From the NCBI GenBank assembly GCA_027081405.1, contig JALWKO010000078.1:1-64000 (forward strand): a DNA stretch of 64,000 nucleotides. Direction: 5' to 3'. The position numbers and the translations under genes were made by a program. Shown here piece after piece: positions 1,661 through 61,975 of this stretch. This DNA is from Campylobacteraceae bacterium. GTDB lineage: Bacteria > Campylobacterota > Campylobacteria > Campylobacterales > Sulfurovaceae. The notes beneath the pieces were generated by a model. The model did no database searches, was not told the DNA's origin, and saw only the letters and a program-made list of their open reading frames with translations. Within the stretch, counting starts at the first letter, position 1, and every line of letters begins with the position of its first letter.

Positions 1661-1872
1661 GATCGTGGACAAGATTCGTCGTTTGAGATTTGTCGGCAGT
1701 CGGCAGTCGGCAGTCGGCAAAGAGAAAGTCGCCAGTCGCCAGTCGCCGGTCGCCAGTCGTGTTGCCTTCGGCAACGCACCAAAATCCAAAATCCAAAATC
1801 CAAAATCCATCATCAAACTCGTTGCGAAGCAACGCCTACCGAAATTCTCCATTCTCCATTCTCCATTCTCAA
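1648..1872. repeat. Heptad-hairpin element A: GAGTGAG x2 (1648-1661), GTCGGCA x4 (1692-1719), GTCGCCA x4 (1728-1755), hairpin GTTGCC-TTC-GGCAAC (1761-1775), AAAATCC x4 (1781-1808), hairpin GTTGC-GAA-GCAAC (1821-1833), TTCTCCA x4 (1845-1872)
   Basis: Read directly; tandem 7-bp units, four per array. Confidence 0.93.
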
Positions 1873-1891
1873 TTCCCCGAAAGGCTTCCTT

Positions 1892-3262: not shown

Positions 3263-3266
3263 TCAA

Positions 3267-3294
3267 TTGAGAATGGAAAATTGAGAATGGAGAA
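3267..3294. repeat. Heptad element D: TTGAGAA/TGGAAAA/TTGAGAA/TGGAGAA (4 units, 28 bp)
   Basis: Tandem 7-bp units between hemN stop (3260-3262) and downstream start codon (3287). Confidence 0.85.
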
Positions 3295-4576
3295 TTCCGA
3301 AAAATTCCACTTCACCGCCATCAGCGACGCTTGCATCAAATGCGGCAAATGCATCCCCGGGTGCACCATCCACCTGATCAATCCCGACGAGACCACCTCT
3401 CCCCGGGGCTTCATCGATCTGCTGGGGGCCTACGAGCGGGGGGAGCTAGAGCTGGATCGAAACGCCAAAGAGATCTTTGAGAGCTGTTTTTTGTGCACCC
3501 ACTGCACCGAGGTCTGCCCCAACTCGCTCCCGACCGATATGGTGATCGAAGAGGTCCGCCGGGACATCGCCGAGAAATTCGGGATCGCCTGGTTCAAGCG
3601 GGCTTTTTTCACCCTCCTGCGCCACCGGAAACTGATGGACTGGATGATGAAGCTGGGCTACACCTTCCGCACCTGCGGCTTCAAAGAAGAACCGTCCAAA
3701 GGGGGGATGATCCCCCGCTTCCCCCTCCCCATCGTCAAGAGCGGCCGTCTGCTGCCCAGCCTGGGGAAAACCAGCTTTCTCAACAAATACCCCGAGGAGA
3801 TCCCCCACGGGGGCAAGCGGCGGGTGGCGATCTTCATCGGGTGCCTGGCCAACTACAACTACACCACGATCGGCGACAGCCTGGTGGAGATCCTCGAAAC
3901 CCTCGGCATCGACGTCTTCATCCCCAAAAAGCAGATGTGCTGCGCCGCCCCGGCCTATTTCACCGGTGACTTCTACACCGTCGAAACCCTGGCCAAACGG
4001 AACATCGAATATTTCGAAAGCTTCATCGACGAAGTTGAAGCGATCATCATCCCCGAAGCGACCTGTTCGGCGATGATCAAACACGATTGGGAGGTCTTTT
4101 TCCGCAACCGGGGGATGGAGGAGTGGGCCGAGCGGGCCCGCAGACTCAACGAAAAGATCTTCATGGCCACCGAATGGCTGGCCGAGCATACCGATCTGAC
4201 GGAGCGCCTGGCCGCCACAGGGACCCGAATGCCCCGGAGTGTGACCTACCACGACGCCTGCCACGCCCGAAAGGTCCAGGGGATCTGGCAGCAGCCCCGC
4301 ACCCTCCTGCGCCAGAACTACGAGATCAAAGAGATGAGCGACCCCAACCGCTGCTGCGGTTTCGGCGGCGTGACCATGCAGACGGAAAAATACCATCTGG
4401 CTGAAGCCGCCGGCAAGCCCAAAGCGGCCATGATCGATGAGACCGGTGCCCAGATCGTCAGTGCCGAGTGCAGCGCCTGCCGGATGCAGATCTCCAACTC
4501 TCTGCATCAGGCCGACGTGGACGTGGTTTTCAAAAATCCCGTGGAACTCATCGCCGAAGCACTCCGAAAACGCTGA
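3287..4576 (+). CDS. (Fe-S)-binding oxidoreductase with two 4Fe-4S motifs and CCG domains (GlcF/HdrD-like)
   Basis: CIKCGKCIPGC, CFLCTHCTEVCP, CCGFGG motifs; ORF opens at 3281 (TTG), ATG at 3287 lies in the heptad array. Confidence 0.8.
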   Translation: MENSEKFHFTAISDACIKCGKCIPGCTIHLINPDETTSPRGFIDLLGAYERGELELDRNAKEIFESCFLCTHCTEVCPNSLPTDMVIEEVRRDIAEKFGIAWFKRAFFTLLRHRKLMDWMMKLGYTFRTCGFKEEPSKGGMIPRFPLPIVKSGRLLPSLGKTSFLNKYPEEIPHGGKRRVAIFIGCLANYNYTTIGDSLVEILETLGIDVFIPKKQMCCAAPAYFTGDFYTVETLAKRNIEYFESFIDEVEAIIIPEATCSAMIKHDWEVFFRNRGMEEWAERARRLNEKIFMATEWLAEHTDLTERLAATGTRMPRSVTYHDACHARKVQGIWQQPRTLLRQNYEIKEMSDPNRCCGFGGVTMQTEKYHLAEAAGKPKAAMIDETGAQIVSAECSACRMQISNSLHQADVDVVFKNPVELIAEALRKR

Positions 4577-18242: not shown

Positions 18243-18545
18243 TTCGCTCCTTTGGGAGCGAAAATGAGGAATGAGGAATGAGGAGTGAGGAAACGATTTT
18301 TGATGGGGAATGGAGAATTGGGAATGGAGAATTTCAGAATGCGTTGCAAGACAACGCTACTAGCGACTTGCGACTTGCGATTTGCGGCTCTCTTTCTGCC
18401 GACTGCCGACAGCCTACTGCCAATAAATCTCAAATGACGAAAAGTGCCGTAGGTGCTCTCAATGACCAATGACCAATGACCAATGACCACTAATGGCGCT
18501 GAAAGCGCCATCGGTTCCTCATTCCTCACTCCTTACTCCTCACTC
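18243..18545. repeat. Heptad-hairpin element B: hairpin TTCGCTCC..GGAGCGAA (18243-18262); AATGAGG x4 (18263-18290); AATGGAG-type x4 (18302-18329); hairpin GCGTTG..CAACGC (18341-18357); ACTTGCG x4 (18359-18386); TGCCGAC-type x4 (18397-18424); AATGACC x4 (18461-18488); hairpin ATGGCGCT-GAA-AGCGCCAT (18493-18511); TTCCTCA-type x4 (18515-18542)
   Basis: Read directly; six 28-bp arrays; outermost arrays are inverted relative to each other. Confidence 0.93.
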
Positions 18546-20214: not shown

Positions 20215-20463
20215 TTAGGGGCGCCGGGAGAGGTAGCGCTCCAGCGCTTTGCGCTGGGCGGGAGAGATACGGGGGCGTTTGATCGTACATCCGCGTTTGT
20301 CGACAATGGCAAAAAACGGCGTGTTTGGGCAGCGATCATAGCGATCCAGCACCCCATCGAGGTCTTTGTCATGCCAATTCGCGCGGATCTGACGATGGTG
20401 ATGTCCCCGAGCGGCCAAGAGCGAAAGACCGGCGATGGCCAGGAGAACGAGTGCCCGAATCAT
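20215..20463 (-). CDS. Small exported protein with a thrombospondin type-3-like D-rich motif
   Basis: Signal sequence; DKDLDGVLDRYDRCPNTP. Confidence 0.6.
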   Translation of the reverse strand: MIRALVLLAIAGLSLLAARGHHHRQIRANWHDKDLDGVLDRYDRCPNTPFFAIVDKRGCTIKRPRISPAQRKALERYLSRRP

Positions 20464-22025
20464 CGGTGCCCTCCTCCCATACCGCCCATGCCGCCGAAGC
20501 CTCCGTCAGAATCGCTTCCGTGATCTCCGCCGAAGCCTCCCATTCCGCCGAAGCCTCCCATTCCGCCGGAGTTTCCGGCTCCCGAAGAGCCTCCGTGACC
20601 GCCATGGCCACCGTGCCCTCCGGAATTTCCGAAGCCTCCCATTCCGCCGAAAGCTCCCGTTGCTCCGGAAGTTCCATGACTGCTATGAGATCCAAAACCG
20701 CCCATACTTCCGTGATGTCCGCCGACCGATCCGCGATGTCCGTAACCGCGATGTCCGTAACCGCGGGAACTGTGTGCCCCGTGATGACCGAAATGATCGC
20801 CAAGGACATCCAACGGACTGGGGTGAGACGCTCCGCGATGCGAGCTGAGTGCGCCGAGTGCGGCGTTCATACCGGCACGGGCGTGTTGGTGGGCGCTTTG
20901 ATGCATCCCGTGTGCCCACGAATGGGCCGTTTGATGCATAGCATGAACCTGCTCGTGCATCGCATGGGCTTGCGCATGGGCATGTTGTGCTGTCGTTTGC
21001 GCATGGGTTTGTGCCCGGCTTTGCACCCGGGCATGCATCGCGGCGGCCCGTTCCTGAACGCTCTGACGCACCTGGGCGATCGCCGCTTGTTGTTGTTCGA
21101 CGTTCATCGCGGCGATCTGGGATTTGATCCGGTTCATGATCGCATAGGCTTGCGAAGGCGGAACGCTACGCAACTGGGCGATCAAGCCGTCGATCGCATG
21201 GTGGGTACTATCCTGTGCGGCATGCTGCGACCCGTCCGTATGCGCTTGCCCGCGGGAATCGGAAGCGCTTTGATTCTGTGCTTGAGTGTGGGATCCGGAA
21301 TGCTCCTGCGCGCTTCCCGAATGACTCTGCGCGGTGTTCGCATCCGTTTGGGTCTCGTCAGAATCGCCGGTTGCATGGGAGTCATGTCCCTCCGCACTGT
21401 CGTGGCCGGAAGCTGCCTGAGCCGAATCGGCGTTGGTCGACGTATCAGACGGTGCGTTTCCCCGATCGGTTCCACTGTGACCGAGTGCCGCCCCCATGCC
21501 GTGTTGGGCCGCCTGTGCGGCGGTATCTATCCCTTGCTGTGCCGATTGGGCGGCTGTTTGCATGCCGCTGTGGGCCGCTTCATGGGCATGTTCCATCCCC
21601 TCCTGAGCCGCGGCCTGAGCGCTTTGCGTCCCTTGCATCGCCGCCGCTTGGGCGTTCGTCATTCCCACATGCGCGGCGTTATGGGCACTTTGTGCTCCCG
21701 TAGCGGCCGCCGAGCGTTCTGCGGCACGTTGAGCCTCTGAACCGTCGTTTGCGGAACTTTCCCCGTCAGCGGATGCGGCATGAGTGTCTGCACTTTGATC
21801 TCCCGACCGATCCTGGGAAGCTCCCCGATCCGACTGCGTCGTTTGTGCGTCTGCTTGGGAATTTTGCGCGTTTGCAGCGGTCGAAGCGCTATCGTGTACG
21901 CTTGTCGCATCGCCTTGGGCATTGTGCGCACTGGTATCTCCGCCAGGCCCTGCCATCAAAATGGGCGAGGCTGCCAGCAATGCCGCCAATACGGCGGCGG
22001 CGCGTTTGTGTTTCATTATCATCAT
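20460..22025 (-). CDS. Secreted low-complexity Ala/Gln/His/Gly-rich protein with 11-residue repeats
   Basis: Signal peptide MKHKRAAAVLAALLAASPILMA; six 11-aa repeats; Gly/His-rich C-terminus. Confidence 0.7.
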   Translation of the reverse strand: MMIMKHKRAAAVLAALLAASPILMAGPGGDTSAHNAQGDATSVHDSASTAANAQNSQADAQTTQSDRGASQDRSGDQSADTHAASADGESSANDGSEAQRAAERSAAATGAQSAHNAAHVGMTNAQAAAMQGTQSAQAAAQEGMEHAHEAAHSGMQTAAQSAQQGIDTAAQAAQHGMGAALGHSGTDRGNAPSDTSTNADSAQAASGHDSAEGHDSHATGDSDETQTDANTAQSHSGSAQEHSGSHTQAQNQSASDSRGQAHTDGSQHAAQDSTHHAIDGLIAQLRSVPPSQAYAIMNRIKSQIAAMNVEQQQAAIAQVRQSVQERAAAMHARVQSRAQTHAQTTAQHAHAQAHAMHEQVHAMHQTAHSWAHGMHQSAHQHARAGMNAALGALSSHRGASHPSPLDVLGDHFGHHGAHSSRGYGHRGYGHRGSVGGHHGSMGGFGSHSSHGTSGATGAFGGMGGFGNSGGHGGHGGHGGSSGAGNSGGMGGFGGMGGFGGDHGSDSDGGFGGMGGMGGGHR

Positions 22026-23846: not shown

Positions 23847-25064
23847 ATGAAGCGTCGGGGTTTGGTGATTGTGGGGATTGGATTGGTTGCATTCGTACTG
23901 ATCGGCCTACGGATCACCCATCGCCCCCCCTCTCCCCGTTCGGCTCAAGCAACCGCGCCACATCCGGCCAAAACGCCCATCGCCCCTCCCAAAAAACATT
24001 CCCCCAAAACCGTCAAGCCTTCTCCTCTCGTTCATAAAACGGCTCCGAACCCTACGAAACGGCATGCACTCCCGCCACTGGTATACATCCTCTCCTCCGA
24101 TCCCGCTTCGGTGATTGAATCGTTCCAACGGCAGGGGATCGACGTCTGGAGCGGAGATTATCTGTTCCTTCCCTCTCCGGTACGCCCCGGTTGGATCCGC
24201 CCTCCCGCCGGAATTTCAGTGCATGAATTTTTGCGACGGATCAACGATTTTCCCCGGGAAAAGACCCGCCGGGTCGTCATGTACGCCGGAGACTCTCTGG
24301 ACGATTTCATCCCCCGATTCGCTAGGCAGACCCGTATGGATCCCAAAGCGTTGCTCGAAGAGTATTACCGCCACAGCCCCTACATCGAGGGGGGGATCCT
24401 GGCGGGGTATTATCGCCTCCCTTATCGCCTGAGTCCCGCCCCGGCGATGGCTTATCTGACGGAGACGAGCGAACGGACGTTTCGGGAAATTTCCGAACGC
24501 CATCTGGGGCGCTACGATCCTGCCGAATTCCGACGCTATCTGATCATCGCGTCGATCATCCAGCGGGAGACCTGGCGGCGAAGCGAAATGCCCAAAATCT
24601 CTGCGGTGATCTACAACCGCCTGGCCAAAAATATGAAACTCCAGCTCGACGCCACCCTCAACTACGGCCCCTGGTCCCACAAAAAAGTCACCCCCGAACG
24701 GATCCGAACCGATCGGAGCCGGTTCAATACCTATCGTTACTACGGACTTCCCCCTTTGCCGCTTGGGAGCGTCTCCGAATCGGCCCTCGAAGCGGCGTTC
24801 CGTCCGGCGAAAACCGACGCACTCTATTTCGTCAGGGGGAAAAACGGACGCCATATTTTCAGCCGTACCTATACCCAACACGAATCGTGGATCCACCGCC
24901 GCATCGCCACGCACAAATCCCATCGGGCAACATCCAGGCACCCCGACTCGTCCGACGAACAGCCGGAAAACGCCGTCGACAACCTCGTCAATTCCCTCCG
25001 TCCCCCGCCGACACCCCCTTTGGGTATAATCCCGAAGAATCCACCCCAACGGACACGAGAATGA
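23847..25064 (+). CDS. mltG: Endolytic murein transglycosylase
   Basis: YceG-type: [51 protein letters not shown]. Confidence 0.88.
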
Positions 25065-26296
25065 CGCACGCTACGACAAACGAATTCTACATCCCCACCT
25101 CTTCCCCGTTCGATCCCGACGAAAACGGCCACTTCGGGATCTTCGGCGGGCGCTACGTCCCCGAAACCCTCATGCCGATCCTCGAAGAACTCAAAAAAGA
25201 CTACGAAGCGGTCCGTTTCGACCCGGAGTTCTGGAAAGAGGTGGACTACTACTACCGCCACTATGTCGGCCGACCCAGTCCTCTCTATTTCGCCGAAAAC
25301 CTCTCCCGGGAGACCGGAGCGCGCATCTACCTCAAGCGCGAAGACCTCAACCACACCGGCGCCCACAAGATCAACCATACCGTCGCCCAGGCGATCCTCG
25401 CCAAGCGGCTGGGCAAAAAGAAGATCATCGCCGAGACCGGCGCGGGACAGCACGGAGTGGCCACCGCCACCGTCGCGGCGCTTTTCGGTCTGGAGTGCGA
25501 GATCTTCATGGGGGCCAAAGACGTGGCCCGCCAGGAGCTCAACGTCTTCCGGATGAAACTGCTCGGCGCCAAAGTCCACGCCGTCCAAAGCGGTTCACGG
25601 ACCCTCAAAGACGCTATGAACGACGCCATCCGCCACTGGGTCACCCACGCCCGGGACACCTTCTACGTCATCGGCACCGTCGCCGGCCCTCACCCTTACC
25701 CGATGATGATCCGGGACATCCAGAGCATCATCGGCTGGGAAGCCAAACGGCAAATCAAGCAGGCCGAAGGGCGTCTGCCCGATCACGTCATCGCCTGCAT
25801 CGGAGGAGGGTCCAACGCCATCGGGATCTTCAACCACTTCCTCACCGAAGAGGAGGTCGAGTGCATCGGGATCGAAGCGGGCGGCCTGGGGCTGGACTCC
25901 AAGCACGGCGCCAGCCTGGCCAAAGGCTCCCCGGGAGTGCTCCACGGCCAGATGAGCTACCTGCTCCAGGACGAGGACGGCCAGATCCTGGAAGCCCACT
26001 CCATCAGCGCCGGCCTGGACTATCCCGGTATCGGCCCCGAACACGCCTATCTCAAAGAGCGGGGCACGGTCCGCTACGACCACATCACCGACCGGGAAGC
26101 TTTGGATGCCTTCGTATGGCTCAGCCAGAAAGAGGGGATCATCCCGGCGTTTGAAAGCTCCCACGCCGTGGCGTACCTCAAAAAGATGCAGCCCGAAGAG
26201 CTGGCGGGCAAGCTGATCCTCATCAACCTCTCCGGACGGGGGGACAAGGATATGATTCAAGCGAAAGAGCTCCTCGACTTCGGCGGAGCCGAATGA
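25061..26296 (+). CDS. trpB: Tryptophan synthase beta chain
   Basis: [47 protein letters not shown]. Confidence 0.96.
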
Positions 26297-26298
26297 GA

Positions 26299-26326
26299 TT
26301 CTAGAAACTAGTAACTAGTAACTAGA
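26299..26326. repeat. Heptad element C, left array: AACTAGT-type x4
   Basis: TTCTAGA AACTAGT AACTAGT AACTAGA. Confidence 0.9.
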
Positions 26327-26342
26327 TTTTGAAAGGTTAAAT

Positions 26343-26681
26343 GTGCTCTGTGAGAAATTGGATGTTTGGAAAAGATCGGCAGCGTTATCATCTGAACTCT
26401 ATATCTACTTTCGTGATATTAAAGACTACGGTTTCAAAGATCAAATCACACGAGCCGGGCTCTCAATACCCAGCAATATAGCCGAAGGAGTGGAACGTGC
26501 CACAGACAAAGAAACTATCCGTTTTCTCAATATCGCTCAGGGATCTTGTGCCGAGCTCAAGACCCAGATCTACATCGGAATGAAGATAGAGTATATAGAT
26601 CGAGAAACCGGAAAAAAGTGGATCAGAGAATTGGAAGAAATCCACAAAATGATCGGAGGCTTGAAAAAAGCACAAACGTAG
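26343..26681 (+). CDS. Four-helix-bundle protein (S23 / 23S rRNA intervening-sequence protein family, TIGR02436-like)
   Basis: LDVWKRSAALSSELYIYF...GFKDQITRAGLSIPSNIAEGVERATDKETIRFLNIAQGSCAELKTQI. Confidence 0.88.
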   Translation: MLCEKLDVWKRSAALSSELYIYFRDIKDYGFKDQITRAGLSIPSNIAEGVERATDKETIRFLNIAQGSCAELKTQIYIGMKIEYIDRETGKKWIRELEEIHKMIGGLKKAQT

Positions 26682-26785
26682 AAACAAGAGACAAGTAACT
26701 AGTAACTAGAAAGTGCTAAGTTGGGTTTTGACACTTCCAGCTCCCTGACCTTCTCTAGTCTCTAGTTACTTGTTACTAGTTACTC
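26682..26785. repeat. Heptad element C, right arrays: AAACAAG/AGACAAG/TAACTAG/TAACTAG (26682-26709) and inverted TTCTCTA/GTCTCTA/GTTACTT/GTTACTA/GTTACTC (26751-26785)
   Basis: Read directly. Confidence 0.9.
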
Positions 26786-26798
26786 AAAAAGGATCCCT

Positions 26799-28283
26799 AT
26801 GAAAACCATCAAATTTTACGAAAAACTCCTCAACGAAATCGAAGCCGACGTCGAGATCGTCATCGTCGTCAACAAAAACTTCGACCAGCGCTTCTGCGAC
26901 GAAGAAAAAGATCTCCTCAAAGAGGCGGGCTTTTCCGGTGAGCAGGACGAGACCTGTCTCCTGGCCGAAAAGCGCAAGATTTTCGTCGGGGCCGACTCCA
27001 TCAAGAGTGCCGATATCCGCTCCGCCGCCGCCAACGCCGTGCGGGCCCTGGAGGGCAAAGGATACAAAATCGCCAAGATGGGCAGCTATATGAGCCACCC
27101 CACCTGTACCGCCACGTTGCGGGCCCAGGCCGAAGGGTTGCTGCTGGGAGGCTACCGTTTCGATCGCTACAAAAGCAAAAAGAACGACAAGCATCTGCAC
27201 AAAGTCCGCATCTCCCTGGAGGAGTACAACGGCTACGAACTCGACATTCCCGCCGCCCAGCGGGCGATCGACAAGGGCATCGTCAGCGCCGAAGCGACCA
27301 ATTTCGTCCGGGACATCGTCAACACCGCACCCGACGACTGCTACCCCGAGACGATGGCCCGGATCGCCCGGGAACTGGCCGAGAAAGAGGCGCACCTGAG
27401 CGTTGAAGTCCTCGATCGTGACGCGATGCGCAAAGAGGGGATGAACGCCCTGCTGGCCGTCGCCCGGGCCAGCCGCCACGAGCCGCGGCTCATCCACCTG
27501 AGCTACATCCCCAAGGAGAAGCCCGTCGCCACCGTCAGCCTGGTGGGCAAGGGGCTCACCTACGACAGCGGGGGACTGAGCCTCAAACCCTCTGAGTATA
27601 TGGTGACGATGAAAGCCGACAAAAGCGGCGGTTCGACAGTGCTGGGAATCCTCAAGGCCGTCGCCGAACTCCATCTGCCCGTCGAGGTCCACGGTTTCAT
27701 CGGCGCGGTGGAGAACATGATCGGCGGCGACGCCTACAAACCCGACGACGTGCTGCGGGCCAAAAACGGCAAAACGATCGAAGTGCGCAACACCGACGCC
27801 GAAGGACGCCTGGTCCTGGCCGACGTGCTCTGCTACGCCCAGGAGAAGGTCAAAGCCGACTACCTCTTCGATCTGGCCACCCTCACCGGTGCCTGCGTCG
27901 TGGGCGTGGGACAATATACCAGCGGCGTCATGGGATTCGCCGCCGAACCGGTGGAGCGGGTCCTCTACGCCGCCAACACCCTCGCCGGCGAACTGGCCAC
28001 GAAACTGGACTTCAACCGTTTCCTGCGCAAAACCCTCAAAAGCGAGATCGCCGACATCTGCAACATCTCCAACACCCGCTACGGCGGGGCGATCACCGCG
28101 GCGATGTTCCTTGGGGAATTCATCGACGAAGAATACAAAGAGAAGTGGGCCCACATCGACATCGCCGGCCCCGCTTTCGTCGAGCACCCCTGGGGGGAGA
28201 ATCCCCACGGCGCCAGCGGTGCGGGAGTGCGGACGATCATCCGGCTCCTGGAGAAACTCGCCCGGGGGGAGGCGCACAAATAA
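26799..28283 (+). CDS. pepA: Leucyl aminopeptidase (M17)
   Basis: VGKGLTYDSGGLSLKPS, NTDAEGRLVLADVL. Confidence 0.95.
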   Translation: MKTIKFYEKLLNEIEADVEIVIVVNKNFDQRFCDEEKDLLKEAGFSGEQDETCLLAEKRKIFVGADSIKSADIRSAAANAVRALEGKGYKIAKMGSYMSHPTCTATLRAQAEGLLLGGYRFDRYKSKKNDKHLHKVRISLEEYNGYELDIPAAQRAIDKGIVSAEATNFVRDIVNTAPDDCYPETMARIARELAEKEAHLSVEVLDRDAMRKEGMNALLAVARASRHEPRLIHLSYIPKEKPVATVSLVGKGLTYDSGGLSLKPSEYMVTMKADKSGGSTVLGILKAVAELHLPVEVHGFIGAVENMIGGDAYKPDDVLRAKNGKTIEVRNTDAEGRLVLADVLCYAQEKVKADYLFDLATLTGACVVGVGQYTSGVMGFAAEPVERVLYAANTLAGELATKLDFNRFLRKTLKSEIADICNISNTRYGGAITAAMFLGEFIDEEYKEKWAHIDIAGPAFVEHPWGENPHGASGAGVRTIIRLLEKLARGEAHK

Positions 28284-54176: not shown

Positions 54177-54364
54177 CTTCGCCTGCGGCGAAAATTATTG
54201 GTTATTTGTCATTGGTCATTGGGAAAAGAGTTCCATGCCCACCCGTTTTGCGGGACCGAAGTCCCGCCTCCCAAAAAGTGCGGCAAAGCCGCACCCCAAA
54301 ACTCTTCACTCTTCACTCTTCACTCCTCACTCTTCACTTGTTATCTCAGCTCGGCTGAGATAAC
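54177..54364. repeat. Heptad-hairpin element G: hairpin TTCGCC-TGC-GGCGAA; GTCATTG-type x4 (54194-54221); hairpin GCGGGAC-CGAA-GTCCCGC (54250-54267); hairpin GTGCGGC-AAA-GCCGCAC (54278-54294); ACTCTTC-type x5 (54301-54335); hairpin GTTATCTCAGC-TCG-GCTGAGATAAC (54340-54364)
   Basis: Read directly. Confidence 0.92.
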
Positions 54365-60175: not shown

Positions 60176-61861
60176 ATGGAACCGAATTCGCCGATCAAAC
60201 CCAACAAGATCGAACGGCTCAAAACCCGGCTCCAGCCCTGCGACTACGACCTCGCTTCGGTCAACTGGCTCCATCCCGACGACGAGAGCCGTTTCTATCT
60301 CAAAAACTTCGGCATCTACAACATCAAACTCCGCCCCGAGACCTGGATGATCCGTCTCCGTTTCGACGGAGGGATCCTCGATGCCGACCGGCTCGCATCG
60401 GTCGCCCGCATCGCCCGGAGGGAAGGGCTCCGGATCCTCCTGAGCACGCGTGCCCAGATGGAGCTGCACGATCTGACACCCCGACGGGTCTACCCCGTCT
60501 GGAGCGAACTCCGCGAAGCGGGTCTGACGAGCCTCCAGACCCTCACCGACAATCTGCGGGGAATCCTGATCGATCCCCTCGACGATTGTGCCCCCGATCG
60601 CCGGATCGAATGCCGCCCCATTCTCGAGCGGCTGCAAGGCACCTACGTCGACGTCCCCGAATGGATCGGCACCCTTCCGCGCAAATTCAATGCGGCCCTC
60701 ATCGGGCGGGAAACCCCCTCCTTCAACCCCTGGGGGCAGGACCTGCTGCTGGCTCTGGCACAAAAAGGGGGAGAATGGGGGTTCAACCTCTATCTCGGGG
60801 GGAAAAACAGCGAAACGGCCCGGGATGCCGACATTTTCTGCACCCCGGAGGAGGCTTGCGCACTCTTCGGGGCGGTGCTGGAGGTCTACCGCCGTCACGG
60901 TCTACGCGGCAGCCGGGCCAAGACCAGCCTCCATCACCTCATCGAATCGGCAGGAATCGGGCAGGTTCGTCACTGGATCGAAGAGGCTTTGGAGCACGAA
61001 CTCCCCTCGGCAGGGAAGCTTCGGATGCGCAGCAGCGCGGAAAATCTCGATCATCTCCTTCCGATCCGACGATTCGGCCGCCACGGGGAGATCGACCCAG
61101 AGACCCTGCACGAAGCGGCCCGGGAAGCCCGCACCCAAAACCTCACCCTCCGCCTCACCCCCCGCCAGGAACTCTGGCTCTTCGACCCCATCGCCATCCA
61201 AAAATCATCTTCCATCCTTAATTCTCAATCCTCAATTCTCAATTCTCCATCTGCTCCCAAAGGGAGCGTTACCGCCTGCGCCGGCTCGCGCTACTGCCCC
61301 CTCGCGCTCTGGGAGATCAAGCCCGATGCACGGCATCTCCCCCTCGGGATCCTCACCCGGCGGGGGATCCGGGTAGGAATGAGCGGCTGCCTCAAAGGGT
61401 GCGGCCGCCACCACCACGCCGACATCGGACTGGTGGGGCTGCGGAGCAACGCCTTCGGACCGACGGAACGGGCGCTGCGGGTTTTCGTCGGAGCGCTGGA
61501 AGCACCCGATCCGGCACCGGCGCGGCTGCTTTTTTACGCCGTGCCCGAACGCTCCGCAGCCCGACTGTTCAAAGTCATCGCCCAGGACTACGAACGATCG
61601 AGAGCCTCCTCTTTTGGGGAATTCAGCCGCACGGTCCTGCGCCGCTACGACGAAGAGACCCTGACGCTCTGGTATCTGCTACGGCAACTGGACGGAATCA
61701 CGCAAGAGACGCAACGACAATTTTTCGATGGTGACGAGGATACGCTACGAGAAGCGCTCCGGGCCCTTCCCGCCTTCCCAAAGGAGGCGAGACAGATCTC
61801 CGAAGCGATCTCCCTGCTGAGCCATCGGCTATGGGACAAAACGGGGTGGAGTGAGGAGTGA
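60176..61861 (+). CDS. Siroheme/4Fe-4S nitrite or sulfite reductase family protein carrying an in-frame heptad insertion
   Basis: TACAGSRYCPLALWEIK and GCLKGCGRHHHADIGLVG cluster-binding motifs. Confidence 0.85.
   Translation: MEPNSPIKPNKIERLKTRLQPCDYDLASVNWLHPDDESRFYLKNFGIYNIKLRPETWMIRLRFDGGILDADRLASVARIARREGLRILLSTRAQMELHDLTPRRVYPVWSELREAGLTSLQTLTDNLRGILIDPLDDCAPDRRIECRPILERLQGTYVDVPEWIGTLPRKFNAALIGRETPSFNPWGQDLLLALAQKGGEWGFNLYLGGKNSETARDADIFCTPEEACALFGAVLEVYRRHGLRGSRAKTSLHHLIESAGIGQVRHWIEEALEHELPSAGKLRMRSSAENLDHLLPIRRFGRHGEIDPETLHEAAREARTQNLTLRLTPRQELWLFDPIAIQKSSSILNSQSSILNSPSAPKGSVTACAGSRYCPLALWEIKPDARHLPLGILTRRGIRVGMSGCLKGCGRHHHADIGLVGLRSNAFGPTERALRVFVGALEAPDPAPARLLFYAVPERSAARLFKVIAQDYERSRASSFGEFSRTVLRRYDEETLTLWYLLRQLDGITQETQRQFFDGDEDTLREALRALPAFPKEARQISEAISLLSHRLWDKTGWSEE
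61212..61267. repeat. Heptad-hairpin element H inside a CDS: CAATTCT-type x6 (61212-61253) plus hairpin GCTCCC-AAA-GGGAGC (61253-61267)
   Basis: Read directly; encodes ...SSSILNSQSSILNSPSAPKGS. Confidence 0.9.
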
Positions 61862-61975
61862 GGAGTGAGGAGTGAGGAGTGAGGAGTTTAAACTAGCAGA
61901 TAAATTTTGTCAAGGCTCCAATTCTCTATTCTCAATCCTCCATTCTCCATGCTCCATCCGAAAGCTCCACTTTCG
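61849..61975. repeat. Heptad-hairpin element I: GAGTGAG x5 (61849-61883), CAATTCT/CCATTCT-type x6 (61919-61960), hairpin CGAAAG-CTCCA-CTTTCG (61959-61975)
   Basis: Read directly. Confidence 0.92.

Follow-up and report, generated by a model that had tools for sequence, protein, structure and literature searches.

The gap between trpB and pepA in the window (the whole 64,000-nucleotide stretch of DNA analysed here) is filled by a cassette made up of a single small gene and three arrays of tandem heptads (Table 1), and all three genes, the inserted one and its two neighbours, are read from the + strand. The small gene matches the PF05635 profile with 115.8 bits (cut-off 33.8) and also matches NF008912/TIGR02436; PF05635 is the sole Pfam match of the cassette, which encodes no transposase or integrase of its own. 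No rRNA match was found anywhere in the window.

Table 1. Heptad arrays, cassette components and host genes in the window
Feature	Position	Strand	Remarks
Four solo heptad arrays (GTCGGCA, AGTCGCC, CCAAAAT, ATTCTCC), argF-hemN gap	1692..1875		gap clean in PF05635-poor relatives
Short heptad array, AATGGAG type	3265..3296		
Five-array heptad cluster, panB-ruvB gap	18263..18545		outermost pair reverse-complementary
trpB (PALP family), upstream host gene	25064..26296	+	co-directional; profile match
Left arm, heptad array CTAGAAACTAGTAACTAGTAACTAG, AACTAGT type	26301..26325	+	starts a few nt past the trpB stop codon
PF05635/TIGR02436 ('S23', 23S rRNA IVP) gene, 112 aa, four-helix bundle	26343..26681	+	profile match and model
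Second AACTAGT-type array	26682..26709	+	directly 3' of the PF05635 gene; direction ambiguous (ACTAGT core self-complementary)
Right arm, inverted heptad array TCTCTAGTCTCTAGTTACTTGTTACTAGTTACT	26752..26784	+	stops just short of the pepA ribosome-binding site
pepA (M17 leucyl aminopeptidase), downstream host gene	26799..28283	+	co-directional; profile match
Solo heptad array ACTCTTC x5.4	54301..54338		
Solo heptad array, ATCCTCA type	61214..61251		
Two adjacent heptad arrays, GGAGTGA x5.7 then CTCCATT x5.9 (G-rich first, C-rich second)	61848..61957		

A sequence-only reading of this DNA had described heptad arrays on both sides of the gene and taken the whole for a repeat-bounded cassette, an interpretation that is partly supported. 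The flanking arrays were confirmed. An array with the same orientation as the left one, reported on the right-hand side, does lie there, but its direction is nearly ambiguous because the AACTAGT unit holds the self-complementary ACTAGT. The idea that the arms might be duplicated targets did not hold, since left and right arms are inverted relative to each other and therefore resemble a hairpin stem. In the predicted fold of the cassette the arms are paired (z=-2.9), and their arm score, defined below, is 38.

All arrays that a simple detector for periods 4 to 13 recovered in the window, nine in total, have a period of 7; in 610 kb of related loci there were 106 period-7 arrays and at most five of any period not divisible by 7. 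Period-8 (octad) arrays do occur in some genomes (G091, G067, G115, G078 and G053), so that the rule of a 7-nt period, strong as it is, has exceptions; in G067 (L278) an octad array forms the left flank of a PF05635 gene. The window also contains, at 20460-22025 on the - strand, a 521-aa open reading frame of low complexity, with abundant His, Gly, Ala, Gln and Ser residues and tandem repeats inside it.

Structures of the S23/IVP family have been solved since 2006-2007, and its function is unassigned. The AlphaFold model of the window protein (pLDDT 96.5) matches Xcc0516 (2gsc) and BT_0352 (2rld) and, more weakly, the accessory protein Avd of diversity-generating retroelements (DGRs; 4dwl, TM 0.77-0.80). 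Two residues, E48 and E71, never vary among 147 proteins, and two more, Q34 and R37, hardly do. In the literature that PMC4990558 cites on this point, the X. campestris protein is a toroidal pentamer. The kinship to bAvd cited as established in the sequence-only reading stands as far as the fold, and probably the pentameric ring, but goes no further: the window protein scores 21.1 bits against the Avd profile NF033474 (cut-off 80), Avd requires a reverse transcriptase and TR/VR, and inverted arms are missing from L027 and L029, two true relatives of DGR Avd (scores of 17 and 13).

Inverted heptad arms around PF05635 genes

Most of the roughly 70 PF05635 loci that we fetched from Campylobacterota have an array upstream of the gene and its reverse complement downstream. 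The heptad is specific to the locus (GAATGAG, GATTTTG, GTAGCGG, AATGGTG, GTCGTTG and others), both arms of a locus change together, and at most loci other than the one in the window the direction is clear, the two arms being plain reverse complements. The arm score aligns the left flank with the reverse complement of the right flank. At a threshold of at least 30 points, 61% of 69 Campylobacterota loci passed, compared with 2.9% of mismatched flanks from different loci (permutation p=1e-4). Among 81 loci of other phyla (Gammaproteobacteria, Verrucomicrobia, Bacteroidota, Planctomycetes, Clostridia, Desulfobacterota-type MAGs and others) the figures were 51% and 1.2%. Other genes in those loci reached the threshold in 1.4% (Campylobacterota) and 3.6% (other phyla) of cases, and gene by gene matched inverted arms accompanied 51-65% of PF05635 genes but 1-4% of others. 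With the detectors used here, clear arms were not detected at a third to a half of PF05635 loci, which counts against the explanation that we favour below. The possibility that any small gene might serve as cargo was rejected, as arms flank only 4-6% of the other genes of <160 aa there.

Array density falls from 3.06 per kb at up to 100 bp from a PF05635 gene to about 0.1 per kb from 300 bp outwards, so that heptad enrichment near S23 genes elsewhere, which the sequence-only reading had put forward as a check, was indeed observed. An inverted partner was found for 90% of arrays within 250 bp of a PF05635 gene and for 13% of other arrays, with a control value of 5%. Inverted array pairs spaced 250-700 bp apart enclosed a PF05635 gene in 34 of 37 cases, a figure not used as evidence because most loci had been selected for PF05635. 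PF05635 loci share with RAYT genes the placement of a gene between inverted copies of its repeat, and with DNA transposons and MITEs the terminal inverted repeats.

The genes have a strong directional bias: 51 of 55 are co-directional with the upstream gene, compared with a background of 63% (p=4e-7), and they often begin <100 nt from the stop codon of that gene. Proteins at least 85% identical at one site shared their heptad in all 18 pairs (100%). Between different sites, heptads agreed with at most one mismatch in 50% of pairs of 70-85% identity, compared with about 1.5% below 50% identity (permutation p=0.002), a test that involves about two independent families. As the high-identity pairs come from few lineages, the joint change of protein and heptad across sites is suggestive only.

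Filled sites, empty sites and solo arrays

Insertion boundaries could be read at trpB-pepA and at two sites on Nostoc plasmids. At trpB-pepA, AACTAGT arms and the gene are common to the window genome (G000), G007 and G009. The arms are of GTCGCAA type in G001 and G011, where the protein is 80% identical, and of ACGTGCT sequence in G005, where it is 60% identical; the site holds a GTAGTGG hairpin without the gene in G006 and G002, and no insert in G003. The Nostoc sites lie in a three-gene operon with 15 occurrences and identities of up to 95%. One of its stop-start junctions consists of 3 nt only (GTT or ATT) in six plasmids and is filled with arms and gene in pNsp_a, pC052_D, pNPM1, pNPUN01 and pNPUN02; the next junction holds a cassette in pNsp_c only, with a different protein and GGGAAAA heptads. 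In pNPM1 the PF05635 gene is itself broken by a further insert bearing a heptad array. Empty sites in relatives, which the sequence-only reading had suggested looking for, thus exist both in G003 and on the Nostoc plasmids, where a 3-nt gap in one plasmid corresponds to a cassette in its sisters. A possible 5-6 nt duplication, TTCTA, at the first Nostoc site is confounded by the arm's own heptad, TTCTGAC, and target-site duplication was not evident at the second. Plasmid duplicates of Nostoc 7120 and Calothrix, considered for defining the element ends, were dropped because of their long shared backbone homology.

The argF-hemN and panB-ruvB gaps are short clean spacers in the PF05635-poor or -negative genomes G003, G008 and G012 (as is argF-hemN in G004), and contain up to seven arrays of varied heptads in PF05635-rich species. 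Upstream of hemN in G010 (L256), the argF-hemN spacer holds a decayed PF05635 gene, and the window species has solo arrays only there. In several species the outermost pair of arrays in panB-ruvB still matches. A type III-B CRISPR operon on a Picosynechococcus plasmid has a PF05635 gene with short inverted arms between its cas10 and cmr3 genes (L296, 3986-4342). Element insertion would explain why PF05635 genes are found between unrelated operon genes, and insertions such as that at cas10-cmr3 may account for the listing of PF05635 genes beside rare CRISPR systems (PMC10910872).

The window genome contains six PF05635 genes, and its genus relatives between none and eight. Genome-wide heptad counts were obtained from patterns, which cover only TGA or AGT cores in four units, and from random stretches. 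Across 150 genomes of the order, at least three pattern matches were present in 36 of 46 PF05635-positive genomes vs 13 of 104 negative ones (Fisher p=5e-15), and matches correlated with PF05635 copy number (Spearman 0.68); when labels were shuffled within families only, the association persisted (p=5e-5). Random stretches yielded 14 period-7 arrays in 342 kb from positive genomes vs one low-complexity array in 324 kb from negative ones. The association between heptads and PF05635 at the genome level is correlational. Extragenic dispersal of the repeat is confined to genomes that have the gene, with exceptions in both directions: few heptads despite the gene in G016, G023, G070 and G099, and some heptads without it in G046 and G148. 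Two further genomes lacking PF05635 were noted, G152 with a long perfect array of about 22 TGACTGC units (C1:458977-459133) and G161 with many AGT-core matches.

Other candidate partners fared less well. Reverse transcriptases (PF00078) were not associated with heptads across the 150 genomes (OR 0.69, p=0.44), RVT_1 is absent from heptad-rich genomes, and the remark that no reverse transcriptase is visible in the window proved true of the whole window genome. A Y1/RAYT transposase as the true driver was rejected, being weakly associated (OR 3.0), absent from the heptad-rich G138 and not found in G129. G011 carries (on C1) full-length Y1 (IS200-type) transposase genes, seven in number and with identical scores, which reflect a recent burst that has nothing to do with heptads. 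A phage origin was dismissed after 0 matches in 50,697 phage records.

Most arrays away from PF05635 genes are unpaired "solo arms", often with a heptad that also occurs in a PF05635 arm of their own genome. Their lengths peak at about 27-32 nt, or about four units, like those of gene arms. An arm with a matching heptad exists in the same genome for 54% of them, compared with 26% for arms of other genomes and 13% for shuffled heptads. They are mostly not decayed hairpin pairs, as an inverted partner accompanies 13%. Neighbouring arrays within one spacer followed the order G-rich then C-rich 25 times and the reverse once, alongside 26 like-like pairs; since the former order is identical on both strands, the arrays point towards each other. 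Left gene arms are 33% G and 5% C, and right arms are their mirror image.

Copies in 23S rRNA genes and other heptameric repeats

Intervening sequences (IVSs) carrying an S23/IVP open reading frame occur in the 23S rRNA genes of Leptospira, Coxiella and Brucella, and it is chiefly from such rRNA inserts that the gene has been known so far. In our set, G099 has three identical-scoring PF05635 copies and zero heptad pattern matches elsewhere in its genome. The copy that we fetched lies inside a 23S rRNA gene (Rfam LSU at 778-4343 of L267, PF05635 gene at 2260-2599, same strand), within a stem built of ACAGATT heptads, CGGAATACAGATTACAGAATACAGATTACAG, whose arms are paired in the predicted fold (z=-8.4). 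The presence of the same heptad stem in this copy indicates that rRNA IVSs and intergenic cassettes share one design. Together with the sense orientation of the genes, the rRNA copies point to elements that live in transcripts.

IVSs resemble the window cassette in protein family and in layout, with the gene in the loop of a terminal inverted-repeat stem of about 28 bp, a length reported for Coxiella, where GACAGAT heptameric repeats stand ahead of the S23p start (PMC4990558). IVSs are reported to take the place of tetraloops of rRNA helices, and RNase III to excise them in Coxiella and others, with no ligation afterwards (PMC4990558). Unlike IVSs, the window cassette and most others occupy intergenic spacers. 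In the literature that we found, a general heptad rule, solo arms and a genome-wide association are undescribed for IVSs; the heptamers of one IVS were thus known before, and as a rule extending to intergenic genes they are seemingly new, in that we did not find it in any paper. rRNA intervening sequences would be recast as a single niche within the range of a broader element.

Many bacterial genomes contain an unexplained excess of heptameric tandem repeats (PMC4692102). Named examples are the cyanobacterial STRR, the GGGAATC repeats of Xanthomonas, which form 70-75 convergent inverted pairs (PMC4692102), the TAACTGA repeats of Beggiatoaceae (PMC4679880), and the TDNGATT/NNTGAGT heptads on both strands of the P6b stem of Nostoc trnL (PMC4476775). 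In Vibrio salinus (L178), about ten units of TCAGTTA, the reverse complement of the Beggiatoaceae heptad, form the left flank of a PF05635 gene. The window arrays have the same makeup as such heptameric SSRs and STRRs, namely intergenic 7-nt units joined head to tail, but the papers describing those repeats name no protein partner, PF05635 lying outside their scope. In our literature search, which had few subscription journals in scope, no paper linked heptad repeats to a PF05635 protein. Our results, all of them computational, tie the S23/IVP family and heptameric repeats together across phyla and, since the genomes strewn with heptads are those with PF05635, the family probably supplies the protein partner so far lacking for a widespread class of DNA repeats in bacteria.

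A candidate hairpin element and its alternatives

The explanation that we favour, and consider somewhat likelier to be right than wrong, is a small hairpin element in which the four-helix-bundle protein works on behalf of the heptad arms, in the manner of REP/RAYT systems and in the absence of a known transposase. In both cases a single gene is framed by a short repeat in inverted copies, and the repeat is found dispersed between genes in the genomes carrying the gene. In contrast to RAYT, a Y1/HUH transposase, PF05635 is a four-helix bundle without an HUH nuclease, and its repeat is a tandem heptad array of locus-specific sequence, whereas REP is a fixed palindrome. The element consists of a left heptad arm, the PF05635 gene in the loop and a right arm that is the reverse complement of the left, and its positions and the empty sites show that it enters, in sense direction, a transcribed spacer (typically just past a stop codon within an operon) or an rRNA hairpin loop. 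In RNA the arms (about 28-31 bp, four heptads) would pair, leaving the gene in the loop, and in rRNA copies RNase III cuts the stem (PMC4990558). The protein, translated from the loop, may assemble into a toroidal pentamer that acts in trans and recognises its own heptad, single-stranded or as a hairpin, as the joint change of protein and heptad suggests. With the help of host enzymes, arms and at times whole cassettes would then spread by copying to further spacers, where solo arms of about four units remain, a step to which the genome-wide association and the heptads of solo arms point. The two arms may be kept alike by template switching within the hairpin. The PF05635 fold is not known to contain a catalytic motif for mobility, which counts against this explanation, as does the report that the Coxiella S23 protein appeared not to be produced in vivo (PMC4990558).

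The same layout could instead serve the host, with PF05635 proteins as RNA-binding regulators, heptads as their selected sites in mRNA leaders and spacers, and the inverted arms as an autoregulatory hairpin. Sense orientation and operon position agree with this, arms that are G-rich on the 5' side and C-rich on the 3' side would suit a reader of RNA, the gene is kept at orthologous sites across species with its arms still complementary, and translational regulation has been proposed for the TAACTGA heptads (MacGregor 2015; PMC4679880). We nevertheless consider it unlikely, as the heptad is replaced wholesale between close relatives at one site, relatives manage with clean gaps of 3-40 nt, copy number varies from 0 to 8 in one genus, the cassette also sits inside rRNA and the cas10-cmr3 operon, and solo arrays adjoin unrelated genes. 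The absence of arrays from the PF05635-negative sister species G003 and G012 weighs against a passenger role, in which replication slippage in certain lineages and template switching in hairpins would make the arrays and PF05635 genes, inert towards the repeats, would merely survive best there. Template switching would explain joint arm change and homogeneous units, and such a role would accommodate the PF05635-negative genomes with heptads and the octad or hexad arrays of a few genomes; at the same time slippage predicts neither a fixed period of 7 nor a peak at about four units, and solo heptads match arms of the same genome, so that a passenger role appears quite improbable.

A retroelement of the DGR or retron kind, with a reverse transcriptase that acts in trans and PF05635 as its Avd-like helper, would draw on the shared Avd fold and the weak Avd profile match described above. 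It is largely refuted, and in our estimate hardly credible any longer: RVT_1 proteins are missing from the window genome and from the heptad-rich G011, G138 and G157, reverse transcriptases do not follow heptads across the 150 genomes, and true Avd loci have no heptad arms.

The favoured hairpin element can be extended to a wider proposal, to which we give somewhat less than an even chance. PF05635 would then define a bacteria-wide class of mobile hairpins whose sole protein, a ring-forming four-helix bundle and reader of a heptad code, would drive the heptameric repeats observed over decades in cyanobacteria, Xanthomonas, Beggiatoaceae and others; rRNA IVSs would be the subset residing in rRNA hairpin loops, and new copies would enter existing hairpin loops. 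Such entry would explain why neighbouring arrays almost always face each other (25 vs 1).

Spacers with heptad arrays have other recurrent features. Small GC-rich palindromes, GCGTTGC-nnn-GCAACGC and GGCGC-tttca-GCGCC, lie between arrays (window 1760-1843, 18334-18358, 18490-18515 and 54236-54300; L228-L234), and C-rich arrays often have CCGAAA in front; the same spacers of related species carry both the palindromes and CCGAAA.
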